From Candidatus Halocynthiibacter alkanivorans (GTDB taxonomy: Bacteria > Pseudomonadota > Alphaproteobacteria > Rhodobacterales > Rhodobacteraceae): a stretch of 64,000 nt of DNA. The stretch spans positions 62,001 to 126,000 of the forward strand of contig NZ_QOLB01000077.1 of NCBI RefSeq assembly GCF_003333265.1, given 5' to 3'. Made by a program: the position numbers and the translations under genes. Each line of letters opens with the position of its first letter. The stretch's first letter is position 1. The notes below the pieces were generated by a model, which ran no database searches, was not told where the DNA came from, and was given only the letters and a program-made list of their open reading frames with translations. Shown here one piece after another: positions 49,681-61,160 of this stretch.

Positions 49681-50577
49681 ATGAAACATCGTCTCCCAAA
49701 TCTGACCTGGCTGCGCACATTTGAATCTGCTGCCCGCCTGCTTAACTTCACCGCAGCCGGCCGCGAACTAGGGCTGACCCAGACCGCCGTCAGTCTTCAT
49801 ATCAAATCACTCGAAGCGAGCCTGGGCTGCAAACTGTTCCTGCGTCAGCCACGCCGGCTGGCGCTGAGCGAAATGGGCGAAGCCTATGTCGGCTCCGTCC
49901 GCAGGGCGCTGGATGATATCAATATGTCAACCACCGGCCTGTTCGGATCCACAACCAAACACACGATTACGGTCAAAGCGCCGATCTCCACGGTGACCCT
50001 GTGGCTCGCGCCCTTGTTGCCGGATTTCCTCGACAAACACCCGGCAATTAACATCCGGCTCATTTCGCGGATCTGGGCGGACTCAATTGCGGATGAAGAT
50101 GTGGATATCGACCTGCGGCTGGGCTACGGCGACTGGCCCGGCATGAATATTGAAAAGCTTTCAGAGGAAACCATTGTGCCAGTCTGTGCGCGTTCTGCAG
50201 CGGAGAACATCAAATCGCCGGCGGATCTTCCTGGTGGAAATCTGATCCATATTCTGGGCTATGAAGACAATTGGGAGCGATATCTGTCTGCGCGGGGGGT
50301 GCAGATAAAAGAGGCCAATATCCGCTGTTGGGTTGATACCACCGCCGCCGCTTTTGAACTGGTCGCGGCCGATGGTGGCTATGCAACATTTTTGACCCGT
50401 TTTGCACAAAGCGCCGTGAGGCGCGGTTGTCCGGTGGCGATCGCCGGCCCCCCGATTGCGTTTCCACAGGCGCATTACATCACCGATGTGATTGGCCGCG
50501 GCCCGGTGAAGCCCGAGGTTGAGCTTTTTAAGTCCTGGCTGCGCGTCCGGTTAAAAGAAACAAAGCAAACCAGTTAA
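49681..50577 (+). CDS. LysR-family transcriptional regulator (GcvA/AmpR-like)
   Basis: A 298-residue protein: LPNLTWLRTFESAARLLNFT and LGLTQTAVSLHIKSLEASLG form the HTH, and the effector domain begins around residue 95 (HTITVKAPISTVTLWLAPLL). It is divergent from the beta-hydroxyacid dehydrogenase gene with 136 bases between starts and convergent with the aldehyde dehydrogenase gene. It probably controls the sugar-acid genes on one or both sides. Confidence 0.9.
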   Translation: MKHRLPNLTWLRTFESAARLLNFTAAGRELGLTQTAVSLHIKSLEASLGCKLFLRQPRRLALSEMGEAYVGSVRRALDDINMSTTGLFGSTTKHTITVKAPISTVTLWLAPLLPDFLDKHPAINIRLISRIWADSIADEDVDIDLRLGYGDWPGMNIEKLSEETIVPVCARSAAENIKSPADLPGGNLIHILGYEDNWERYLSARGVQIKEANIRCWVDTTAAAFELVAADGGYATFLTRFAQSAVRRGCPVAIAGPPIAFPQAHYITDVIGRGPVKPEVELFKSWLRVRLKETKQTS

Positions 50578-50642
50578 ATAAATCAATATCAGATACTTCA
50601 CGGGAAGTATTACCGCACTGCTTTATCTGTGCCGGAATTATA

Positions 50643-50670
50643 GCTGGCCCCGGAGCATTCCGGAGCCAGC
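50643..50670. terminator. Terminator-like hairpin between convergent LysR and aldehyde dehydrogenase genes
   Basis: GCTGGC-C-CCGGA (50643-50654) pairs with TCCGG-A-GCCAGC (50659-50670) around a GCAT loop, with one C-A mismatch. It is placed between two genes that end towards each other and may terminate both. Confidence 0.5.
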
Positions 50671-50699
50671 GACGGTGCTTCGAACGCGTTGAGCGGCAA

Positions 50700-52187
50700 T
50701 CACGTGTTGCTGAGGGTGATGCTCTTGACTTTGGTATAAGCATCCAGCCCTTCCCAGCCTTTTTCACGGCCATATCCGGATTTCCCGTTGCCGCCAAAGG
50801 GCAGTTCAACGCCACCCGCCCAATAGTCATTGATGGTCACCTGGCCGCAATCAAGGGCAGAGGCCATCCGCATCGCGCGTCCGACATCTCTTGTATAGAC
50901 GCCGGCGACCAGACCAAATTCGGTGCCATTCGCCAACCGGACCGCATCTTCTTCACTGTCAAAGACCTGTACTGAGAGAACGGGACCAAAAATTTCCTGC
51001 TGCACAGCCGGGTCGTCAGACGCAAGATCGGCGATGATTGTGGGCTCAAAGAACCAGCCCTTGCCCGTTGCGGGATCGGTGGTGGCATTGCCGCCGGTCA
51101 GGATATCGCATCCGCGCGCTTTGGCAGAGTCCAGATGGGACTGAATACGTGCAAGATGCAGGTCCGAATTGATCGCGCCCATGTCGGGATTACGCAGCCC
51201 GTGGCCAACCTGAATGGCCCGCGCCCTGGCAACCAGGCCCTCAAGCACTTCATCGCGGATGTTCCGGTGCACCAGCAACCGCGAACCGGCGGAACAGATT
51301 TGTCCCGCATTGGAAAAGATTGCCCAGAACGCCCCATCTATCGCGGCAGCTACATCGCAGTCTTCAAAGGCGATCAGCGGGGATTTTCCGCCCAGTTCAA
51401 GCGTCAGCCGCGTCACATTCGGTGCCGCGGCCTGAGCGACAGCGACTCCGGTGCCGACCGAGCCGGTAAATGTCAGTTGTTTGACCCGCGGATCAGAGAC
51501 CATCGCGGCGCCGGCCTGGCTCCCCAGTCCTGTAACCACATTGACCACCCCATCCGGCACGCCGGCTTCTGACAACAGCGCCGCCATGACCAATGCTGTA
51601 TAGGGGGTGGTTTCCGCTGGTTTCGCCACCACAGAACAGCCCGCCGCCAGTGCCGGGGCTACACCACGTGCAAAAGTGGAGGTCGGATAGTTCCACGGAA
51701 TGATGTGGCCGGTCACACCCACAGGTTCGCGCATGGTAAACGCAGTATGCGAGGACCCCAGATTGACGGAACGCCCGTCCAGCTTGTCTGCAGCACCGGC
51801 ATAATATTCAAACAGCCGCGCGGAACCGGCCACATCACCTTCGGCTTCGGCAAGGGTTTTGCCGGAATCCACACATTCCAGAAACGCCAGCCGCTCTGCA
51901 TTGGCCCGCAGGACCCGCGCCACCTCGTTCAGGATACGGCAACGTTCTGCTGGTTTGACGCCGCGCCAGTGCGCCGCGCCTTTCTCCGCAACGCCGATGG
52001 CCTTGTCCATATCAGCCGCAGTTCCCAGCGCAAACTCGCCAAAGGGCGTGGCCAGTCCAGGGTCAAAGGACTGCATCTTCTCACCGGAGCTGCCTTCTAC
52101 CCAGGAGCCGCCAATGAAGTGGCGGTCGGGAAGGTGGGCAATGGTGCCGGTGTCCAGGTAAGTGGTGGCAAATGTATTCTGGGTCAT
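50700..52187 (-). CDS. Aldehyde dehydrogenase family protein
   Basis: A 495-residue NAD(P)-dependent dehydrogenase with NYPTSTFARGVAPALAAGCS, the catalytic Glu in TLELGGKSPLIAF near residue 265 and the catalytic Cys in SNAGQICSAGSRLLV near 299. It oxidises an aldehyde to its acid in the cytoplasm. Its start overlaps the enolase-superfamily gene stop by four bases (ATGA). In the operon GMC oxidoreductase, dehydratase, aldehyde dehydrogenase it would act on the aldehyde made by the GMC enzyme or formed later. Confidence 0.92.
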   Translation of the reverse strand: MTQNTFATTYLDTGTIAHLPDRHFIGGSWVEGSSGEKMQSFDPGLATPFGEFALGTAADMDKAIGVAEKGAAHWRGVKPAERCRILNEVARVLRANAERLAFLECVDSGKTLAEAEGDVAGSARLFEYYAGAADKLDGRSVNLGSSHTAFTMREPVGVTGHIIPWNYPTSTFARGVAPALAAGCSVVAKPAETTPYTALVMAALLSEAGVPDGVVNVVTGLGSQAGAAMVSDPRVKQLTFTGSVGTGVAVAQAAAPNVTRLTLELGGKSPLIAFEDCDVAAAIDGAFWAIFSNAGQICSAGSRLLVHRNIRDEVLEGLVARARAIQVGHGLRNPDMGAINSDLHLARIQSHLDSAKARGCDILTGGNATTDPATGKGWFFEPTIIADLASDDPAVQQEIFGPVLSVQVFDSEEDAVRLANGTEFGLVAGVYTRDVGRAMRMASALDCGQVTINDYWAGGVELPFGGNGKSGYGREKGWEGLDAYTKVKSITLSNT

Positions 52188-53290
52188 GTTTCGAACTCAC
52201 TGACTTGATAGCTTGAACGGTCGAGCCATTCCGGGTTGATTTCGACGCCCCAACCAGGAGCGTCGGTGACTGTGGCTTTGCCATCAGTGATCTCATAGGG
52301 GCTGGAGACGAACAGATTTTGTTGCCAGGGGTAATAGTCCGCCCCTTCGATGGAAAACTCCAGATACTTGCCCGCATTAGGGATGGCGCGCAGCAGATGC
52401 ATGGTAAACAACGTCACCATCGACAGGTTCGCACAGTGGGGCGTACAGGGCAGGTCTGCGGCCTGGCCCATCGCTGCAACCTGCAGGGTGCGGTGCATGC
52501 CGCCCATATAGAGAATATCGGGCTGAATAATGTCGACGGCCCGCATGTCGATCATCCGGCGCCAGTGCTGGAAATCACAGTCTTGTTCACCGCCGGTTAC
52601 ATCCAGGGTCAAGGCGTCAGTGACCTGTTTGGTCTCTTCCATCAGCCAATACGGGCAAGGCTCTTCAAAATGCTCGACCCCGTTGTCTTGTAGCAATTTA
52701 CCCACTTCAATGGCACGGGGGGCCGAAAAACCAGAATTGCCATCCACCAGCAAGGACACTTTGTCCCCCAGCATTATCCGTACGGTCGGCACCACTTCCT
52801 CGGTGCGCCCGGGCCATTCGTCGATATCATGGCCACATTCGGCGCCAACGCGGAATTTGAACGCGTCAAACCCGTGTTTTTCCCGCAAAGCCAGCAACCG
52901 GTCTGCTTCGTCTCTTGCGGTGATGTCCCGCCGCATCGAGGACGCATAAGCGCGCAGCGGCCCGGCAGAACCGCCAAGCAGCTCGGCGACGGGCTTGCCT
53001 GCTTGTTTGCCGCGCCAATCCCAGATTGCCGTGTCCAGCCCCGCCAGGGCACGGCGCAGATATGAGCCGGGAAATTTATGCTCGCGTTCGGTAATTTCCA
53101 CGGTCAGCGCTTCCAGTTCCGACATATCCCGGCCCAGAGCCCAGGGGGCTATCTGGCGGTGAAACACCTGCACGGTTATATCAGAATGATAGGTCGAGAC
53201 CTGGCCCCAACCGGTACTGCCATCCTCGGCAGTGACGCGGATAAAACCGACAAACTCATTTGCAAAGCTCTCTAGCTTGATGATTTTCAT
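52184..53290 (-). CDS. Mandelate racemase/muconate lactonising enzyme-family dehydratase
   Basis: A 368-residue enolase-superfamily enzyme with complete active-site motifs: AFKFRVG near residue 147, VDGNSGF with the first metal Asp near 194, FEEPCPYW near 219, TGGEQDC near 245, and the catalytic His in PHCANLSM near 296. The KxR pattern and PHC motif place it near the mandelate-racemase subgroup of sugar-acid dehydratases. It lies one base after the GMC gene and overlaps the aldehyde dehydrogenase gene. The substrate is probably a sugar acid. Confidence 0.88.
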   Translation of the reverse strand: MKIIKLESFANEFVGFIRVTAEDGSTGWGQVSTYHSDITVQVFHRQIAPWALGRDMSELEALTVEITEREHKFPGSYLRRALAGLDTAIWDWRGKQAGKPVAELLGGSAGPLRAYASSMRRDITARDEADRLLALREKHGFDAFKFRVGAECGHDIDEWPGRTEEVVPTVRIMLGDKVSLLVDGNSGFSAPRAIEVGKLLQDNGVEHFEEPCPYWLMEETKQVTDALTLDVTGGEQDCDFQHWRRMIDMRAVDIIQPDILYMGGMHRTLQVAAMGQAADLPCTPHCANLSMVTLFTMHLLRAIPNAGKYLEFSIEGADYYPWQQNLFVSSPYEITDGKATVTDAPGWGVEINPEWLDRSSYQVSEFET

Positions 53291-53291
53291 G

Positions 53292-54896
53292 TTAGTGCCC
53301 TGCTTTCAAAATGAGATCTGCACCGCGATGGGCCAGCATCATGGTCGGTGCGTTGGTATTGCCTGAGGTGATATTGGGGAAGGCCGACGCATCCACGACC
53401 CTGAGCCCGCGCACGCCATAGACGCGCAGATCCGCATCCAGAACAGCACTGGCCGCGTCCGGTCCCATGCGACAAGTTGAGGTCGGGTGAAAGACCGTGC
53501 CGGCGCGGGCCCGAAAATCCGCGAGGATTTCCTCCCCATCCATTGTCATAAGATCTTGATCAACCGGCGCATCAACCAGTTTCTGCAACGCTGTGCTGCG
53601 CATGATCCGCTGACACAACCGGCCCGCCGCGATCACGTCCAGTTGATCTTTTTCTGTGGCCAGAGAATTGGGCGCGATCTGCGGCGCGGCGGCGTAATCC
53701 GGGCTTTGAATATCGATGCGTCCGCGACTGCTCGGGCGCGACGGCTGTGGCCCGATGATAAAGCCGGGAAACGGGTCGGGATTGATCGTGGTGCGTTTGC
53801 CATCGGTCCGGGTCTTGTAGGACACCGGGTTAAAATACAGCTGAACATCAGGTCTGGGTTGATCCGCTGTGCTGCGGAAAAAACCGCCACACTGGTTGAC
53901 GCTGAGCGCCAAAGGCCCCTTGCGTGTCAGCAGATACTGCAAGCCGGCGCCAAGTTTGCCGTACCAGGGGTGCAGCACGTTGTTCAGCGTCGGTTCAGTG
54001 GCCTTGAAATAATAGTTGATCGCCAGATGATCCTGAAGGTTCCCGCCCACATTCGGATTGTCGACAAGCACCTGAATGCCGTGGCGTTGCAACACATCCC
54101 CGGGTCCGATCCCCGACAATTGCAGGATCTGCGGCGAAGCAACCGCTCCGGCACTTAGAATAACTTCAGCGCGGGCCAGTAAAACGTCACCGTGTCCGGT
54201 TTCAACGCCGGTAGCGCGCCCCTCGTCGATGAGAACCCTCCGGACCGCCGTATTGATCCGTAAGCTGAGATTTTTCCGCCGCAAAGCGGGTTTCAGAAAG
54301 CCGCGCGCAGAAGAACACCGCCGACCATCAATGGTATTGATCCTGTAGGTCGTGGCGCCCTCTGGCTCTGGCCCGTTGCAATCACCGGTGAGCGGCATAT
54401 TCAGCTCCCGCATCGCCGCAAAATAATGCCGGTTCACCGGGTGGATCTGTTTTGATGTATCCTGAACATGGATCGGACCAGCACCAAGTCTGGTGCCATC
54501 AGCCTGGACGGAGGTTTCGATAGCATCGTAGTGACTGCGGACCCCGGCCCAGTCCCAGCCCGTTGCCCCTGCCGCCTGCCAGTCTTCAAAATCGCCCGGC
54601 AACCCGCGACAATATACCAGCGCATTAATGGAGCCCGAGCCGCCAACCAGCTTGCCGCGCGGCCAGTACCCAGCACGTCCGTTCAGCGTTTTTTCCGGTA
54701 CTGTGTCGAATTTCCAGTTCCGCTGCGGATCATGGAACAGTTTGCCATATCCCAAAGGCAACGACACCCAGGGAGATCTGTCACTGCCCCCCGCCTCAAG
54801 CAGCAACACAGTGATTTTGGGGTTCCGGCTTAATTTCTCGGCCAGAACACAGCCCGCAGAGCCGGCGCCAATAATGATATAGTCAAAGCTGTTCAT
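53292..54896 (-). CDS. GMC-family flavoprotein oxidoreductase (choline dehydrogenase-like)
   Basis: A 534-residue FAD enzyme: DYIIIGAGSAGCVLAEKLS at the N-terminus, WPRGKLVGGSGSINALVYCR (first GMC signature), ILSAGAVASPQILQLSGIG (second signature), and the catalytic His regions FHPTSTCRMG and NTNAPTMMLAHRGADLI. It oxidises an alcohol to an aldehyde. ATG 54896 is chosen because the FAD motif follows at once and GGGA lies five bases upstream. It is first in a tight three-gene operon with the dehydratase and aldehyde dehydrogenase and is divergent from a LysR gene. Confidence 0.92.
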   Translation of the reverse strand: MNSFDYIIIGAGSAGCVLAEKLSRNPKITVLLLEAGGSDRSPWVSLPLGYGKLFHDPQRNWKFDTVPEKTLNGRAGYWPRGKLVGGSGSINALVYCRGLPGDFEDWQAAGATGWDWAGVRSHYDAIETSVQADGTRLGAGPIHVQDTSKQIHPVNRHYFAAMRELNMPLTGDCNGPEPEGATTYRINTIDGRRCSSARGFLKPALRRKNLSLRINTAVRRVLIDEGRATGVETGHGDVLLARAEVILSAGAVASPQILQLSGIGPGDVLQRHGIQVLVDNPNVGGNLQDHLAINYYFKATEPTLNNVLHPWYGKLGAGLQYLLTRKGPLALSVNQCGGFFRSTADQPRPDVQLYFNPVSYKTRTDGKRTTINPDPFPGFIIGPQPSRPSSRGRIDIQSPDYAAAPQIAPNSLATEKDQLDVIAAGRLCQRIMRSTALQKLVDAPVDQDLMTMDGEEILADFRARAGTVFHPTSTCRMGPDAASAVLDADLRVYGVRGLRVVDASAFPNITSGNTNAPTMMLAHRGADLILKAGH

Positions 54897-54998
54897 AGCG
54901 ATCCCAATTGTTCTTTTCCGGTATGTGCGAGGGGTGTGAATATTCAAAACTAAAAATTATTTGGTTTAACCACGAATAAATTTGAAGTAGAAGCTGGC

Positions 54999-55892
54999 AT
55001 GACTTATCAGTTGCCGCCTCTGATCTGGTTACGCGCCTTTGAGGCTTCCGCCAGGTTGGGAAATTTCACCAATGCGTCCCGCGAGTTGCTGCTGACCCCG
55101 GCGGCAGTCAGCTATCAGGTGCGCGCATTAGAACAGCACCTCGGCTATGCCCTGTTTGAACGCGCGCACAGATCGTTGCGCCTGACGCGGCTGGGCCACA
55201 CCTATCTGCCCTCGGTCAGCAAGGCATTTTCTGACTTGTCGGTTTCAACCATGAGCGTATTTGGCACCCGTGACCGTCGGCCGCTGCGGTTCCGCTGCCT
55301 GAACAGCTTTGGGCATCTGTTCATGATCCCGCGCTGGAAGATCTTTCGCGAACGCTACCCAGATATCGATCTGCAAATGATCTCCGCGTCCTGGTCCGAA
55401 ACGCTGGACAATGAAATGCTGGGTCTTGATATCCGGTTCGGCGATGGCCGTTGGCAAGACGGAACGGTTGAGTTGTTGCTCAATGAGCCCATCATCCCGG
55501 TGTGCCACCCCGACCTCGCATTGCATGATATTGATAAGCCGCTAAACCTTCTGGCCGATGCGCCCCGTATCGACATCATGGGGGTGATTGATACCTGGGA
55601 AAACTACTTTCGCCAGCACAACATCAAGGGCAAAGCACGCGATCCCGGATTGCAGGTTGATCAGTCTGTTTCTGCTCTGGAACTGGCAGCGCAGGGATTG
55701 GGGCACAGTCTGGTCCTGCAGAGTTTTGCCCAACCCTATCTGAACTCAGGTCAGCTGGTCCGCTCCTGCTTCGTGCCGATGAAAACCCAGAACAGTCATT
55801 ATGTTGTCTATTCCGGGCCACGGAAAAGCCTGCCGGTCGAAGCCCGGATTTTCTGTGACTGGCTTGCAGATGAAATGGGGGGAACGGATTGA
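54999..55892 (+). CDS. LysR-family transcriptional regulator (GcvA/AmpR-like)
   Basis: A 297-residue protein related in plan to the regulator at 49681: LPPLIWLRAFEASARLGNFT, then LLTPAAVSYQVRALEQHLGY for the HTH, and an effector domain from about residue 90. It is divergent from the GMC-dehydratase-aldehyde dehydrogenase operon with 102 bases between starts, so it is the likely activator of that operon. Confidence 0.9.
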   Translation: MTYQLPPLIWLRAFEASARLGNFTNASRELLLTPAAVSYQVRALEQHLGYALFERAHRSLRLTRLGHTYLPSVSKAFSDLSVSTMSVFGTRDRRPLRFRCLNSFGHLFMIPRWKIFRERYPDIDLQMISASWSETLDNEMLGLDIRFGDGRWQDGTVELLLNEPIIPVCHPDLALHDIDKPLNLLADAPRIDIMGVIDTWENYFRQHNIKGKARDPGLQVDQSVSALELAAQGLGHSLVLQSFAQPYLNSGQLVRSCFVPMKTQNSHYVVYSGPRKSLPVEARIFCDWLADEMGGTD

Positions 55893-56072: not shown

Positions 56073-56693
56073 TCAGCCCCAGCCGTAGTTGAAACTGACG
56101 CTGATCCGTTCATCATCGGTCATGTTCATCGGCACTTCGTGGCGCAACCAGCTTTCCCATAACAGAACTTCGCCAGCCTCAGGAGCGACATAGATGAAAT
56201 TGCGCAATTCGGGCCGCGCGTCAGTTGTGCGCGTGGGGGCGGCCATCATCATCGCCGACCGTGGGTCTTCAAATTTGATGGCACTCGCGCCTTCGGGCAT
56301 TGAGACATAGGTGGTGCCGCTGATCACACTGTGCGGATGCAGATGCGACGTATGCACACCACCTGTCGGCAAGATGTTGATCCACAGCGAGTCCAGTTTG
56401 ATCTTTTTGCCGTCCAGGTCAAATTGCAGGTCTTTGACAAACGCCGCGACGTGTTTGTCGAGCACTTTGACCAAATCCTTGAAGATCGGAAACCGCCAGC
56501 CCAGATCGACCAGCGAAGCATAGCTGGTATAACCCGGAAATCCGTTTTCCTCGCACCAGTCCTGCCCTGCCTCATCATCGTCGGCAATCGACAGGCAGGA
56601 GGTTTCAAGTTCTGCCGTATCCACCGACTTGCCGAATTCGGTCAAGGCAGCGCGGTAGAGGCGGGTAACGAAAAGAGAATCTATCTGTGACAT
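56073..56693 (-). CDS. Putative 2OG-Fe(II) oxygenase (TIGR02466 family)
   Basis: A 206-residue protein with the family core SLWINILPTGGVHTSHLHPH, then SVISGTTYVSMPEGASAIKF and WLRHEVPMNM, and a final RISVSFNYGWG. The histidines in HTSHLHPHS and LRHEV and the Arg near the end are the expected iron and 2-oxoglutarate ligands. ATG 56693 (MSQIDSLF) is chosen by homology. It is divergent from the decarboxylase-like and tyrosinase genes and follows a short unrecognised frame (56701-56973) by seven bases. The substrate is unknown. Confidence 0.85.
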   Translation of the reverse strand: MSQIDSLFVTRLYRAALTEFGKSVDTAELETSCLSIADDDEAGQDWCEENGFPGYTSYASLVDLGWRFPIFKDLVKVLDKHVAAFVKDLQFDLDGKKIKLDSLWINILPTGGVHTSHLHPHSVISGTTYVSMPEGASAIKFEDPRSAMMMAAPTRTTDARPELRNFIYVAPEAGEVLLWESWLRHEVPMNMTDDERISVSFNYGWG

Positions 56694-57096
56694 AGTCTGC
56701 TCATAGCCCAGCCGCCCCTGCATAGCGAGGGGGATATTGAACGTTCTGCAAACCCGGGACCGGTGCGCATGTGCCTTCTAACTCAGACAGAAATGTATCG
56801 GATAGCTGCACCAGGTTCTCACGGCTGTGGTGGAGCGGCAGGCCGGCCTCGGCACCGAAATTCCCTTCATTTCGAATGATCGTTGTGGACTGCGGCATTT
56901 GCCAGCCAACACGCTTTGCAGACACAGCACTAAAAAATGGGCCGCACAGGTCGTCGGCAAAAAACGTAAGCATGCATAATTGGTGCAAAAACGAACGACT
57001 CACGCTATAGTTGAGCAATTCGATCGACCCCATTTTATCGTAACCATTTATGCCCCAACCGTTTTCTTGTCTCGGGCAGCCATAAGGAATTTTCTT
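56694..57096. other. Divergent intergenic region upstream of the decarboxylase-like gene
   Basis: These 403 bases separate the TIGR02466 gene from the decarboxylase-like gene and include the possible small frame at 56701-56973. The last 120 bases are visibly richer in A and T than the surroundings and should hold the promoter for the decarboxylase-tyrosinase pair. No strong operator symmetry was seen. Confidence 0.4.
56701..56973 (-). CDS. Possible small protein, unrecognised
   Basis: A 90-residue open frame (MLTFFADDLCGP...) ends seven bases before the TIGR02466 gene in the same direction, and its codon choice in the second half looks coding (NEGNFGAEAGLPLHHSRENL). A 65-residue form from ATG 56898 is possible. 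No ribosome site is evident and I do not recognise a family. It may be the coding part of an operon with the oxygenase, or chance. Confidence 0.35.
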   Translation of the reverse strand: MLTFFADDLCGPFFSAVSAKRVGWQMPQSTTIIRNEGNFGAEAGLPLHHSRENLVQLSDTFLSELEGTCAPVPGLQNVQYPPRYAGAAGL

Positions 57097-58290
57097 ATGA
57101 CATCAATTTCAACATTAAAAATCCAAGATTCCAACCAATCGGTCCTTACACCAGCGATGCAATTACTCATCGACGAGCTGTGCGTAATCACCTCAAACCC
57201 TGTGGTCGAGGCGGCCTATAATGATGCCATAGCACATGTCGCCCCCTATACAGAAACCGGTGAAGCAAACCCCTGGGCAGGCCAGACGATCGACTATTTT
57301 GTCGACTATTTTGCGGCCTGGTTCACGTTCTTGCCGCAGCCAAGTGGCGGGCTGGGCAAAATTGTGCCTTTTACCTATTTCTACCTCAACAACGAGGTCG
57401 CCTATGCTTTTCTGAACACATTCAAAAGCCGTTCAGAAAGTGCCGACAGTTATACCCGTGAAGTGTTCAACTGGACGGTGAAATTCATCAAAGCGCGGGG
57501 TGAATTCATGGATTCACCTGCGTCATTACAATACTTGGACGAATGGCTGGCTGATCCGGCCACACAGATTGACGACTTCATCGTACCGGAAGGCGGCTTC
57601 AAGTCATTCAATGCGTTTTTCACCCGCGAGTTGAACCCGAACAAAAACGCCCGGCCCGTCGCAGCACCCGATGACGCGGGCGTTCTGGTGGCCTCGGCGG
57701 ATTCTGAGATCAACTTCATCCTTTCGGATTTGACACTGACCCAGAAGATGAATGTCAAAACCCGACAGCTCAACGTGCTCGAATTGTTGAACCAGTCTGA
57801 ATTTGCGCACCATTTCGAGGGTGGAACTGCAGTGTCCTGCGTGCTGATGCCCGGGAACTACCACCGCTACCACGCCCCGGTGACCGGCCAGATTGTAGAA
57901 GGCGCGGGGGTGCCTGGCATCTACAATGGCATTACTGATGGCGAACACTGGTTCAACCAGATTTTTAATGTCGGCGAAAGCACCACCAATTTCAGCGTAT
58001 TTGAGGACTTTCACCGGGCTTATTACATTATCCGGACCCAGGCGCATGGTTATGTCGCTGTGGTGCCCGTCGGATTGAATACCATCAGTGCGCTCACGCC
58101 GTCGCTTGTCGGAAAATCGTCAACCTATGTTCCACCAGGTGGCACACCTGTTCCGGTCATCAAGGGCGAGGAACTTGGTCATTTCGCCTACGGCGGATCG
58201 CTCAATATCCTGCTGTTTCAAAAAGGTGTGATGACATCGGTCTCAGTGCTGATGGGCAGCAGGCTTGGCACGCTCGGCAAACCGGCCTGA
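57097..58290 (+). CDS. Phosphatidylserine-decarboxylase-like protein (PsiD-type amino-acid decarboxylase candidate)
   Basis: A 397-residue protein of the pyruvoyl-dependent phosphatidylserine decarboxylase superfamily. An N-terminal extension of about 160 residues, absent from true PSDs, precedes the core: FKSFNAFFTRELNP (near 168), VASADSEINF, MPGNYHRYHAPVTGQI (H256, H259), and the self-cleavage site GHFAYGGSLNILLF with GGS at 366-368 instead of the usual LGST. The extension, YHRxHAPVxG and HFxxGGS are shared with the fungal tryptophan decarboxylase PsiD. ATG 57097 has AAGGAA seven bases upstream. A tyrosinase gene follows 68 bases later, so an aromatic amino acid is a plausible substrate. 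No membrane segment is evident. Confidence 0.8.
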   Translation: MTSISTLKIQDSNQSVLTPAMQLLIDELCVITSNPVVEAAYNDAIAHVAPYTETGEANPWAGQTIDYFVDYFAAWFTFLPQPSGGLGKIVPFTYFYLNNEVAYAFLNTFKSRSESADSYTREVFNWTVKFIKARGEFMDSPASLQYLDEWLADPATQIDDFIVPEGGFKSFNAFFTRELNPNKNARPVAAPDDAGVLVASADSEINFILSDLTLTQKMNVKTRQLNVLELLNQSEFAHHFEGGTAVSCVLMPGNYHRYHAPVTGQIVEGAGVPGIYNGITDGEHWFNQIFNVGESTTNFSVFEDFHRAYYIIRTQAHGYVAVVPVGLNTISALTPSLVGKSSTYVPPGGTPVPVIKGEELGHFAYGGSLNILLFQKGVMTSVSVLMGSRLGTLGKPA

Positions 58291-58358
58291 CAGCCTGCCT
58301 CCCTGCCCCACTGTTGGCCAGAAATATTTCATTTTGTATTTAGTAAGGAGCAATTCAG

Positions 58359-59939
58359 ATGACATCCGCTCAAACAATTGGCGTTCGCCGCTCTGTTCAG
58401 GACCTGCAGCAAGACTACGACAACGGCATTAAGCAACCTCTGGAAGACGTGGTCCGCGCCTGGAAAGGCATTAAAGAGCTTTCGCCAGACGATCCGCGCT
58501 CATTTTTTATGCTCGCTGGTTATCACGGTGAGCCCTTCGATTTGCGGCCCGCGGTTGACAAGCTGACTGAGACGGACATTTACAGCTACTGGGGCGGCTA
58601 TTGTAACCACGGCAACGTTCTGTTCCCCACCTGGCACCGCGTCTATGTGAAAAAGGTGGAAGAGGCGCTTCAGAGCATCGTGCCCGGTGTGATGATGCCC
58701 TATTGGGACGAAACCGACGCCGCGTCCCTTGCCTGTGGAATCCCGGATGTTCTGACCGCCGAACAGTTTCTCCTCGATGGGGAATTGATCGACAACCCGC
58801 TGAAATCATACACGCTTCCTGAAGAGTTGAAGGATGACTACTGGGGAGACAATCAGAACGGCGAACACGCGCCCTACTATAAGCCAGCAGGCTATGAAAC
58901 CGTGCGATACCCACTGTCAGGTCTGGTCGGCAACCCGAAAGACCTGGCAAAAACCAAAGCGCATAATTCGGACTATCCGGATCCGGCTGAACGGGTGAGC
59001 TTGCTGAATGACAATGTCATGACCTGGCTGCACGGCGGCGATCCGACGCCAGAAAACCCAGATCCCCACGGGGTCGGCATATACGCCAAATTTATCGATT
59101 GCCTTCGTGCGCCAAATTACACCGTCTTCTCCAATGTGACCTCAGCAGGCGCGTGGAACTCCGCCAGTCAGCCATATGCCGTGCCTCTGGAGTCGCCACA
59201 TAATGATATTCACTTGTCGGTCGGTGGTTTTGACCTGCCCTATCCCCAATTTGGCGGTGAAGGCTCAACTTCTGGCCAGGTTGCCGGCGCCAACGGGGAT
59301 ATGGGCGAGAATAATACCGCCGCGCTCGATCCGATCTTCTTTTTCCATCATTGCAATGTCGACCGGATGTTCTGGCTCTGGCAGAAGCGCAATCCAGACC
59401 TGAAAGTTGAAATAATTTCCGGATACGCTGGCACAAACTCCTCTGACAGCCAGGGGCCGACGCCCGGCGTTGCGCCGGATACACCGCTCACAACAAGCTC
59501 GCCTCTGGCGCCTTTCCGCAAGGCCAACAGCCAGGAATATTACAGCTCTGAGGACTGTATCGATACAGAGAACCAGCTTGGATATACTTATGGGCCCGGC
59601 TCGCTTGAGGAGTTGCCAGATCAGGCCCAGACGAAAAGTACCGGGGACGTTCTGACGGTGACAGGTGTCAACCGGGCGCATTTGCAAGGTTCGTTCATAA
59701 TCACCGCGCTGGCCAGAATTGGTGATCGGGTGGAATTTCTGGGCTATGAAAGCGTGCTGAGCCGCTGGAACGTTGATGGCTGCGCAAATTGCCAGACCCA
59801 TCTGGACGTCAGCGCGCATTTTCCGCTCGATATGCTATCAAACAGCGAAATCGCAAGCGCGACATTTGAGGCGACGATTTCTCATCGTGGGGAAAGCCTG
59901 CCTGCCTCAGTTCAGCTCGAGCTTTCTGTGAACGACTGA
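58359..59939 (+). CDS. Tyrosinase/polyphenol oxidase, fungal-like type with C-terminal domain
   Basis: A 526-residue type-3 copper enzyme. CuA ligands are H56 (AGYHGEPF), H84 (YCNHGN) and H93 (FPTWHR); CuB ligands are H281 and H285 (SPHNDIHLS) and H330/H331 (FFFHHCNVDRMFW). C82-x-H84 can form the Cys-His thioether known in fungal tyrosinases. The catalytic domain ends at the Y409-T-Y411 motif, followed by a C-terminal domain of about 110 residues with a C475-x-x-C478 pair, like the copper-loading CXXC of fungal proenzymes. No signal peptide is seen, so it is probably cytoplasmic. AAGGAG precedes ATG 58359. The gene follows the decarboxylase-like gene and should oxidise phenols to quinones. 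Confidence 0.9.
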   Translation: MTSAQTIGVRRSVQDLQQDYDNGIKQPLEDVVRAWKGIKELSPDDPRSFFMLAGYHGEPFDLRPAVDKLTETDIYSYWGGYCNHGNVLFPTWHRVYVKKVEEALQSIVPGVMMPYWDETDAASLACGIPDVLTAEQFLLDGELIDNPLKSYTLPEELKDDYWGDNQNGEHAPYYKPAGYETVRYPLSGLVGNPKDLAKTKAHNSDYPDPAERVSLLNDNVMTWLHGGDPTPENPDPHGVGIYAKFIDCLRAPNYTVFSNVTSAGAWNSASQPYAVPLESPHNDIHLSVGGFDLPYPQFGGEGSTSGQVAGANGDMGENNTAALDPIFFFHHCNVDRMFWLWQKRNPDLKVEIISGYAGTNSSDSQGPTPGVAPDTPLTTSSPLAPFRKANSQEYYSSEDCIDTENQLGYTYGPGSLEELPDQAQTKSTGDVLTVTGVNRAHLQGSFIITALARIGDRVEFLGYESVLSRWNVDGCANCQTHLDVSAHFPLDMLSNSEIASATFEATISHRGESLPASVQLELSVND

Positions 59940-60761: not shown

Positions 60762-61160
60762 ATGGCTACGAAACACCGGATATTCATCTGCACATCATGC
60801 CGCGCCAAAGGCGATCCCTACCGACCCGGCGCTGATCTGATCAAGAAGTTGCAAACGGCATTTCAGGCAGAGAATACTCTGGGTGCCAAAGATTTCGAGA
60901 TCAGCTCTGTGGACTGCATGGCGGGCTGCGACAGCCCCTGCACGCTTGGATTTCAGGCTGCGGGCAAAGCCAGCTACCTGTTTGGAAACATCGATCTCAA
61001 CACCGATATTGCGGCGGTGGTGTCATTTGCGACCCTGTATCATAACCTGCCCGACGGCTGGTGCAGCGGCGGGCTATATCCGCGCAAACTGCGGCTGAAC
61101 ACGCTGGCCCGCATCCCGGCTATGACGGTGCAACACACCCCGGGCGGAACGTTGTCATGA
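60762..61160 (+). CDS. DUF1636 family protein (cysteine-rich, cobalamin-regulated)
   Basis: A 132-residue protein with cysteines C10, C13 (ICTSCRAKGD) and C52, C56, C60 (VDCMAGCDSPC), a pattern like thioredoxin-fold ferredoxins, and the phrase YLFGNIDLNTDIAAVVSFA. The family is often encoded beside B12 or metal uptake genes and may bind a metal or an iron-sulfur cluster. It is first in the riboswitch-controlled operon and overlaps the ABC ATPase gene by four bases (ATGA). Function is not established. Confidence 0.85.
   Translation: MATKHRIFICTSCRAKGDPYRPGADLIKKLQTAFQAENTLGAKDFEISSVDCMAGCDSPCTLGFQAAGKASYLFGNIDLNTDIAAVVSFATLYHNLPDGWCSGGLYPRKLRLNTLARIPAMTVQHTPGGTLS

Follow-up and report, generated by a model that had tools for sequence, protein, structure and literature searches.

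The described proteins closest to the locus analysed here are PsiD, the L-tryptophan decarboxylase of Psilocybe (8x4q, 8zia), a PsiD-like arginine decarboxylase of Aspergillus oryzae (9jer, 9jf5), the phosphatidylserine decarboxylase (PSD) of Escherichia coli (6l06, 7cnw, 7cnz) and btTyr, the tyrosinase of Burkholderia thailandensis (5zrd). The E. coli PSD has the cleavage motif LGST, and motifs of this type are seen in related rows of our alignment. The locus itself, a gene for a pyruvoyl-type decarboxylase followed by a gene for a tyrosinase, lies in a 64,000-nucleotide stretch of Candidatus Halocynthiibacter alkanivorans (contig NZ_QOLB01000077.1, positions 62,001 to 126,000), the whole of which is called the window. 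Both enzymes belong to known superfamilies; what is new is the recurrent partnership of an uncharacterised decarboxylase clade with oxidases.

The window decarboxylase shares with PsiD the whole-chain fold, as predicted, the GGS motif and a YHR-HAPV stretch, but it falls in another clade, lacks PF12588 and has ADSE and GGSL where PsiD has ACES and GGSS. The GGSS of PsiD is named in PMC6121855. The A. oryzae arginine decarboxylase, which sits in the PsiD clade and is 20% identical to the window protein, gave the highest VIA-align Z of the predicted model (21.4 over 293 residues, a tie with 21.1 for PsiD). The E. coli PSD shares the catalytic domain (Z ~16, best 16.2) and the Asp and His motifs; however, it is shorter than the window protein and matches its catalytic part only. 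The window tyrosinase shares with btTyr 60% identity, the conserved His residues, a C-terminal extension and two activity-controller residues. The features of the locus are as follows.

57084-57089, forward strand: Shine-Dalgarno-like AAGGAA ahead of the decarboxylase ATG at 57097, read directly from the sequence
57097-58290, forward strand: pyruvoyl-type decarboxylase gene, 397 amino acids, PSD fold; start ATG 57097, alternative TTG 56980
58192-58200, forward strand: predicted self-cleavage site Gly-Gly-Ser, residues 366-368, with Ser368 as the would-be pyruvoyl group
58291-58358, forward strand: intergenic gap of 68 bases, with Shine-Dalgarno-like AAGGAG at 58345-58350
58359-59939, forward strand: tyrosinase gene, 526 amino acids, start ATG 58359; type-3 copper protein of the B. 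thailandensis (5zrd) kind with a C-terminal extension

Family and clade of the decarboxylase

As a first-pass annotation of the window had it, a decarboxylase (PF02666, E 2.8e-31, 109.2 bits against a Pfam cut-off of 22) is followed 68 bases on by a tyrosinase (PF00264, E 1.3e-42, Pfam), and the coordinates read directly show the two to be a real gene pair. There is no terminator-like site within the 68-base gap. Promoter- and terminator-like sites at the locus did not exceed shuffle level, and no repeats frame the pair, those detected being short, chance-like pairs.

The window decarboxylase is distinct from the housekeeping PSD. It missed the NCBIfam PSD equivalogs by far (best 102 of 371 bits; TIGR00163 61.5 of 111.75), and the housekeeping PSD of this genome is a second PF02666 protein, a 231-residue open frame on another contig. 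Together with the separate clade described below, these observations rule out an ordinary PSD, in line with what had been proposed from the sequence at first sight. The self-cleavage motif noted at that time is also present as a predicted site, the GGS of a Y-G-G-S motif. Gly366, Ser368, His256 and His259 are invariant across 20 aligned sequences, the window protein included, and no signal peptide was apparent in the decarboxylase by eye.

Sequence comparison placed the protein between the two described families. A phmmer search ranked PsiD first (3.5e-10) and the E. coli PSD next (4.7e-7), while a 20-row profile gave almost level E-values (PsiD 5.7e-31, PSD 4.5e-30), so that sequence alone leaves the choice undecided. 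The cleavage site reads GGS in nearly all window- and PsiD-clade rows shown (GSS in L009) and GST in the short PSDs L019, L022, L025, L030 and L040, with GSS, one glycine fewer, in L031. However, GGS is also carried by two rows on the PSD side of the tree, L018 and L020, and, because L018 belongs to the PSD group, GGS versus GST is no clean group marker. ACES or ACEA is found in 12 of 14 PsiD-clade rows and (A/G)D(S/T)E in the eight closest window-clade rows. Residues 270-310 are kept in close relatives of the window protein and differ from those of both PSD and PsiD.

PF12588, the N-terminal domain family of PsiD, had no match in the window decarboxylase at E 0.1 and none in its relatives L002, L003 and L005; two of five more distant clade members (L008 and L010) gave sub-threshold matches (E 0.04-0.05), and all four plasmid-borne proteins of the PsiD clade matched at 3.7e-34 or better. 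In an AlphaFold model of the decarboxylase (20 sequences, pLDDT, the predicted local distance difference test score, 79.6), a helical N-terminal domain and a catalytic domain of the PsiD kind are predicted. Foldseek with this model returned PsiD at 5.5e-14, the A. oryzae arginine decarboxylase at 4.6e-11 and PSD at 1.1e-9. The matches to PsiD and the A. oryzae enzyme span residues 19-366, including the N-terminal helical part, whereas that to the E. coli PSD is confined to residues 125-366, the catalytic part. Profile comparison of the N-terminal domain gave a clear match to a third bacterial clade (98.2%) and a weak one to the PsiD clade (79.6% and 60.2% in two runs), in a comparison that had no working control. 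The PsiD-likeness suggested by the first-pass annotation therefore holds for the predicted whole-chain fold; its PsiD-like N-terminal extension is borne out by the model and, weakly, by the profiles, but not by PF12588.

For phylogenetic analysis, 111 decarboxylase open reading frames (ORFs) were found and 88 kept, those under 200 amino acids and contained duplicates being left out. A first tree held 88 rows, with L035, L037, L039 and L042 out and four reference rows in. A second, unrooted tree was built from 51 hand-picked rows of the 88 and 220 catalytic-domain columns; the long branches ownPSD and L038 were among the rows left out, and the fragment L006 is in no tree. Groups were named after the first tree had been seen. 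In the 51-row tree each of four groups takes one side of a branch: the window clade (17 rows, support 96/91), the PsiD clade (14 rows, 100/98), the PSDs (11 rows, 99/96, taking in L018 and L055) and a third clade (9 rows, 100/99). The window clade neighbours the PSDs and the PsiD clade neighbours the third clade (98/92), and the window protein is sister to a Nitrospira decarboxylase (98/95).

Approximately unbiased (AU) tests rejected placement of the window protein alone inside nine LGST-type PSD rows (p 1.6e-8) and likewise within the PsiD clade (p 1.1e-4); both tests moved only this protein out of its own clade. A third test, joining the whole window clade to the whole PsiD clade, gave p 0.066 and left that arrangement standing. 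Direct membership of the window protein in PsiD is ruled out by the absence of PF12588, the tree and the AU result for the single protein. Of the placement expected beforehand, the position outside the PSD group was recovered, but the protein also stands outside the PsiD clade, and the branch leading to that clade leaves it on the same side as the PSDs. By its aligned sequence, the decarboxylase belongs to a separate, so far unnamed clade outside PSD and PsiD.

Partners of the decarboxylase across phyla

Six peptide patterns, run against one genome per species, yielded 40 decarboxylase loci. Those with at least 60% identity to the window protein came from Nitrospira, a member of the Saprospiraceae, Adonisia, Formosa, a member of the Saprospirales and, as a fragment, Anammoxibacter. 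Further close decarboxylases were found in a Nitrospirota genome (G606) and in G761 of Formosa's phylum, giving nine close members with the window. Pairing was examined at 43 loci, which gave the window, Nitrospira (L001) and Adonisia (L003), and then at ten more, which gave G606 (L097). A tyrosinase thus adjoins the decarboxylase in four of nine close members, across gaps of 68 bases in the window, 16 in both L001 and L097, and 186 (from the chosen ATG) in L003. A full-length tyrosinase of this kind was found in four of the 19 genomes or records that carry a member of the clade (the genome of the L006 fragment counted), always adjoining the decarboxylase. Weak partial tyrosinase matches occur elsewhere in G000, G065 and G606, and the two third-clade genomes searched gave no tyrosinase match.

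Both genes are rare. The decarboxylase was found in two of 61 related genomes, the window's own and one with a 29% hit, in 7 of 339 genomes of Adonisia's phylum (one close), in 7 of 245 Nitrospirota (two close, 70% identity) and in 30 of 345 genomes of Formosa's phylum (two close). The tyrosinase, own genome counted, was found in 3 of 398 genomes of the window's phylum and 2 of 270 of its class. In the Nitrospirota it was present in 2 of 245 genomes, the same two that carry the close decarboxylase, with the genes adjacent. This co-occurrence is more than chance, although its p of 3.3e-5 by simple counting is descriptive only because the two genomes are near relatives. The expectation that the same pair would be found elsewhere was borne out in two Nitrospirota and a cyanobacterium but not close to home: none of the 60 further relatives searched, of which 36 belong to the same family as the window, has a close decarboxylase. 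The open-licence literature, among the matches listed, gave no description of the pair, in agreement with the first-pass annotation, which knew of no described bacterial system of this kind.

The tyrosinase is a type-3 copper protein of the btTyr kind and may have monophenolase activity. It had been called fungal-type; tyrosinase it is, but the qualifier is loose, since its closest solved relative is the bacterial 5zrd (E 2.4e-202). His 56, 84, 93, 281, 285, 330 and 331 are the same in all seven aligned tyrosinases (the window's and six relatives), the six copper-binding positions of such enzymes among them. All seven also keep the Asn and Leu that follow the first two His of the CuB site; these two match the activity-controller residues of btTyr as tabulated in PMC10526336.

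In L001, L097 and L003 a multicopper oxidase also adjoins the decarboxylase. The best Protein Data Bank (PDB) relatives of these oxidases are laccases (1e-29 for L001, 4.7e-18 for L003), and a signal-like start was noted by eye. In both Nitrospirota the genes run oxidase-decarboxylase-tyrosinase, in Adonisia tyrosinase-decarboxylase-oxidase. Identity between the two Nitrospirota oxidases is 93%, compared to ~31% over 304 residues between those of Nitrospira and Adonisia. An eight-row tyrosinase tree separates the window, Adonisia and 5zrd from the Nitrospirota, B. pyrrocinia, G048 and G1215 (100/99), the last two being from another family of the window's class. A single clade of the four paired tyrosinases was rejected (AU p 2.9e-5), with btTyr counted as unpaired, its genome context not having been seen.

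Given the differing gene orders and conflicting trees, the pair was probably formed more than once or had its partners replaced, the two enzyme kinds having apparently been brought together independently in distantly related bacteria. Repeated formation or partner replacement points to selection for the combination and is good evidence for a functional link; association with phenol oxidases is seen repeatedly. There may instead have been a single origin followed by several losses; eight rows are few for a tyrosinase tree. Transfer of one whole mobile unit is unsupported, as the trees disagree, the orders differ and no repeats frame the pair.

Other neighbours were seen at further loci of the clade. 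A 584-587 residue protein lies directly before the close decarboxylase at L004 4179-5933 (Formosa) and L098 9474-11237 (a genome of Formosa's phylum); the two copies are 62% identical, and for the 584-residue L004 protein neither a Pfam family above cut-off nor a PDB relative was found. Distant clade members at L008 5788-8474 and L100 7803-11645 have a signal-peptide-like start by eye and lie near a flavin adenine dinucleotide (FAD) amine-oxidase-like protein, which matched TIGR01377 and N-methyltryptophan oxidase models below cut-off.

Substrate and proposed pathway

The pair points to a route, so far undescribed, by which an amine may be made and oxidised. We propose that the two genes are co-transcribed as a unit and that the decarboxylase would cleave itself at Gly367-Ser368 to form its pyruvoyl cofactor; the window clade would by inference work like a soluble pyruvoyl amino acid decarboxylase, turning a soluble amino acid into an amine. 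The tyrosinase would then turn a phenol into an o-quinone. Along the likeliest route, tyrosine or 3,4-dihydroxyphenylalanine (DOPA) would pass through tyramine or dopamine to an amine quinone, which may polymerise into a melanin-like pigment or cross-link something. In the two Nitrospirota and Adonisia the laccase-like oxidase could carry the oxidation further, and would do so outside the cytoplasm if the signal-like start is real. A Burkholderia cepacia tyrosinase, whose sequence was not compared with ours, oxidises tyrosine, DOPA, tyramine and dopamine at acid pH, according to PMC9189705, which would make the proposed second step chemically ordinary.

This aromatic-amine pathway is plausible but unproven, and as a whole we judge the two-step explanation to fall somewhat short of probable. 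For the window clade, the predicted phenol-oxidase partners are the sole pointer to an aromatic substrate. A fuller version, in which a tyrosinase, joined in some lineages by a laccase, and a new-clade pyruvoyl decarboxylase of tyrosine or DOPA form a bacterial catecholamine-pigment system yielding polydopamine-like material, assembled repeatedly in the window lineage, the Nitrospirota and a cyanobacterium, is possible but doubtful.

Several observations weigh against the aromatic-amine pathway. Of the 19 clade-bearing genomes or records, 15 gave no full-length tyrosinase, and in two Bacteroidota the partner is instead the 584-587 residue protein. The tyrosinase occurs with no annotated decarboxylase alongside on two B. 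pyrrocinia plasmids, and with no decarboxylase nearby in two genomes of another family in the window's class. Among the seven window neighbour proteins scanned there is no multicopper oxidase, some being present elsewhere in the genome. The PsiD of Ps. cyanescens rejected phenylalanine, tyrosine and 5-hydroxytryptophan (PMC6121855), and the PsiD-fold A. oryzae relative is an arginine decarboxylase by the titles of 9jer and 9jf5. The first-pass statement that the PsiD branch decarboxylates aromatic amino acids was too broad on both counts.

The same A. oryzae enzyme argues for a product that is not aromatic (agmatine, putrescine, cadaverine or similar), in which case the tyrosinase would be linked through amine-quinone coupling or a shared stress response. 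The same direction is indicated by a plasmid-borne PF12588-type relative from E. cancerogenus, which adjoins a basic amino acid/polyamine antiporter. However, that relative belongs to another clade and is 25% identical, and the recognisable recurrent partners of the close members are phenol oxidases, so we regard a non-aromatic amine as rather unlikely. At the plasmid locus (pUPC1, L110 498-7194), the 'PSD family' protein lies directly after the antiporter, with YfdX and an efflux pump upstream. The set looks like an amino acid decarboxylase/antiporter unit that would serve in acid response, and the antiporter favours amino acid substrates for the PsiD clade, not aromatic ones.

The decarboxylase may also act after the tyrosinase, on a dopachrome-like carboxylated product or another phenolic acid, and so steer pigment chemistry. 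The adjacency is as consistent with this order of events as with the aromatic-amine pathway, and the distinct residues 270-310 of the close relatives would fit it. However, we know of no PSD-fold enzyme that acts on an oxidation product such as dopachrome, and this order is improbable. Decidedly improbable is a diverged lipid (phosphatidylserine) decarboxylase with the tyrosinase as an unrelated neighbour. The PF02666 match, the closeness of the two profile E-values and the position of the clade on the PSD side of the PsiD branch in the unrooted tree are in its favour. The equivalog scores far under cut-off, the rejection of the window protein alone, though not of the whole clade, among LGST-type PSDs, the separate PSD of the genome and the repetition of the pairing across phyla argue against it.

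Surroundings of the pair and meaning

Upstream of the pair lies a gene that the first-pass annotation had named along with it.

56073-56693, divergent: TIGR02466/PF13759 2-oxoglutarate oxygenase, 287.5 bits against a cut-off of 62.5

A region of 403 bases separates it from the decarboxylase. The earlier start at 56701 falls inside this region and is wrong, the decarboxylase beginning at ATG 57097 (or TTG 56980). The identity and divergent adjacency of the oxygenase were confirmed, but it is probably a bystander. It matched in 27 of the 61 genomes, own included; among the 60 others, 18 carry a copy with 56-80% identity. Neither the decarboxylase nor the tyrosinase had a match in four oxygenase flanks of relatives, where only the oxygenase (by blastn in two of the four) matched window proteins; nor was the oxygenase matched in the other paired loci. 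At L126 5879-9853 a relative's oxygenase lies ~1.5 kb from S8-, L5- and L6-like ribosomal genes (by eye), unlike in the window. A minus-strand ORF at 56701-57033, considered as a precursor peptide, had no significant relative in the loci searched apart from copies of the window itself and was rejected. A three-gene unit tailoring a peptide or amine is very improbable, as it has the divergent adjacency of the window alone in its favour, against an oxygenase common in relatives without a close decarboxylase, flanks without the pair, paired loci without the oxygenase and an unconserved upstream ORF, and the oxygenase was dropped as a third member.

The guanine plus cytosine (GC) content is 52.5% in the decarboxylase, 55.2% in the tyrosinase and 55.0% in the oxygenase, compared to 56-62% in six of seven neighbours; the low GC of the pair fits transfer, but weakly. 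Downstream, a cobalamin riboswitch (RF00174, 60429-60654, 134 bits) precedes a DUF1636 protein (60762-61160), and ATP-binding cassette (ABC) uptake genes (ATPase, binding protein and permease, by eye) also follow it. Upstream, at 49681-55892, two LysR regulators stand around an aldehyde dehydrogenase, an enolase-superfamily protein and a glucose-methanol-choline (GMC) oxidoreductase, the aldehyde dehydrogenase and the first LysR being assigned by eye; these genes are possibly a catabolic set.

If the aromatic-amine pathway is true, the pair would represent a bacterial route to a catecholamine-type pigment via a pyruvoyl enzyme, and a clade labelled phosphatidylserine decarboxylase in databases would gain a biochemical identity. 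Because the association is repeated and re-partnered, a few purified proteins would allow a direct test of the substrate.

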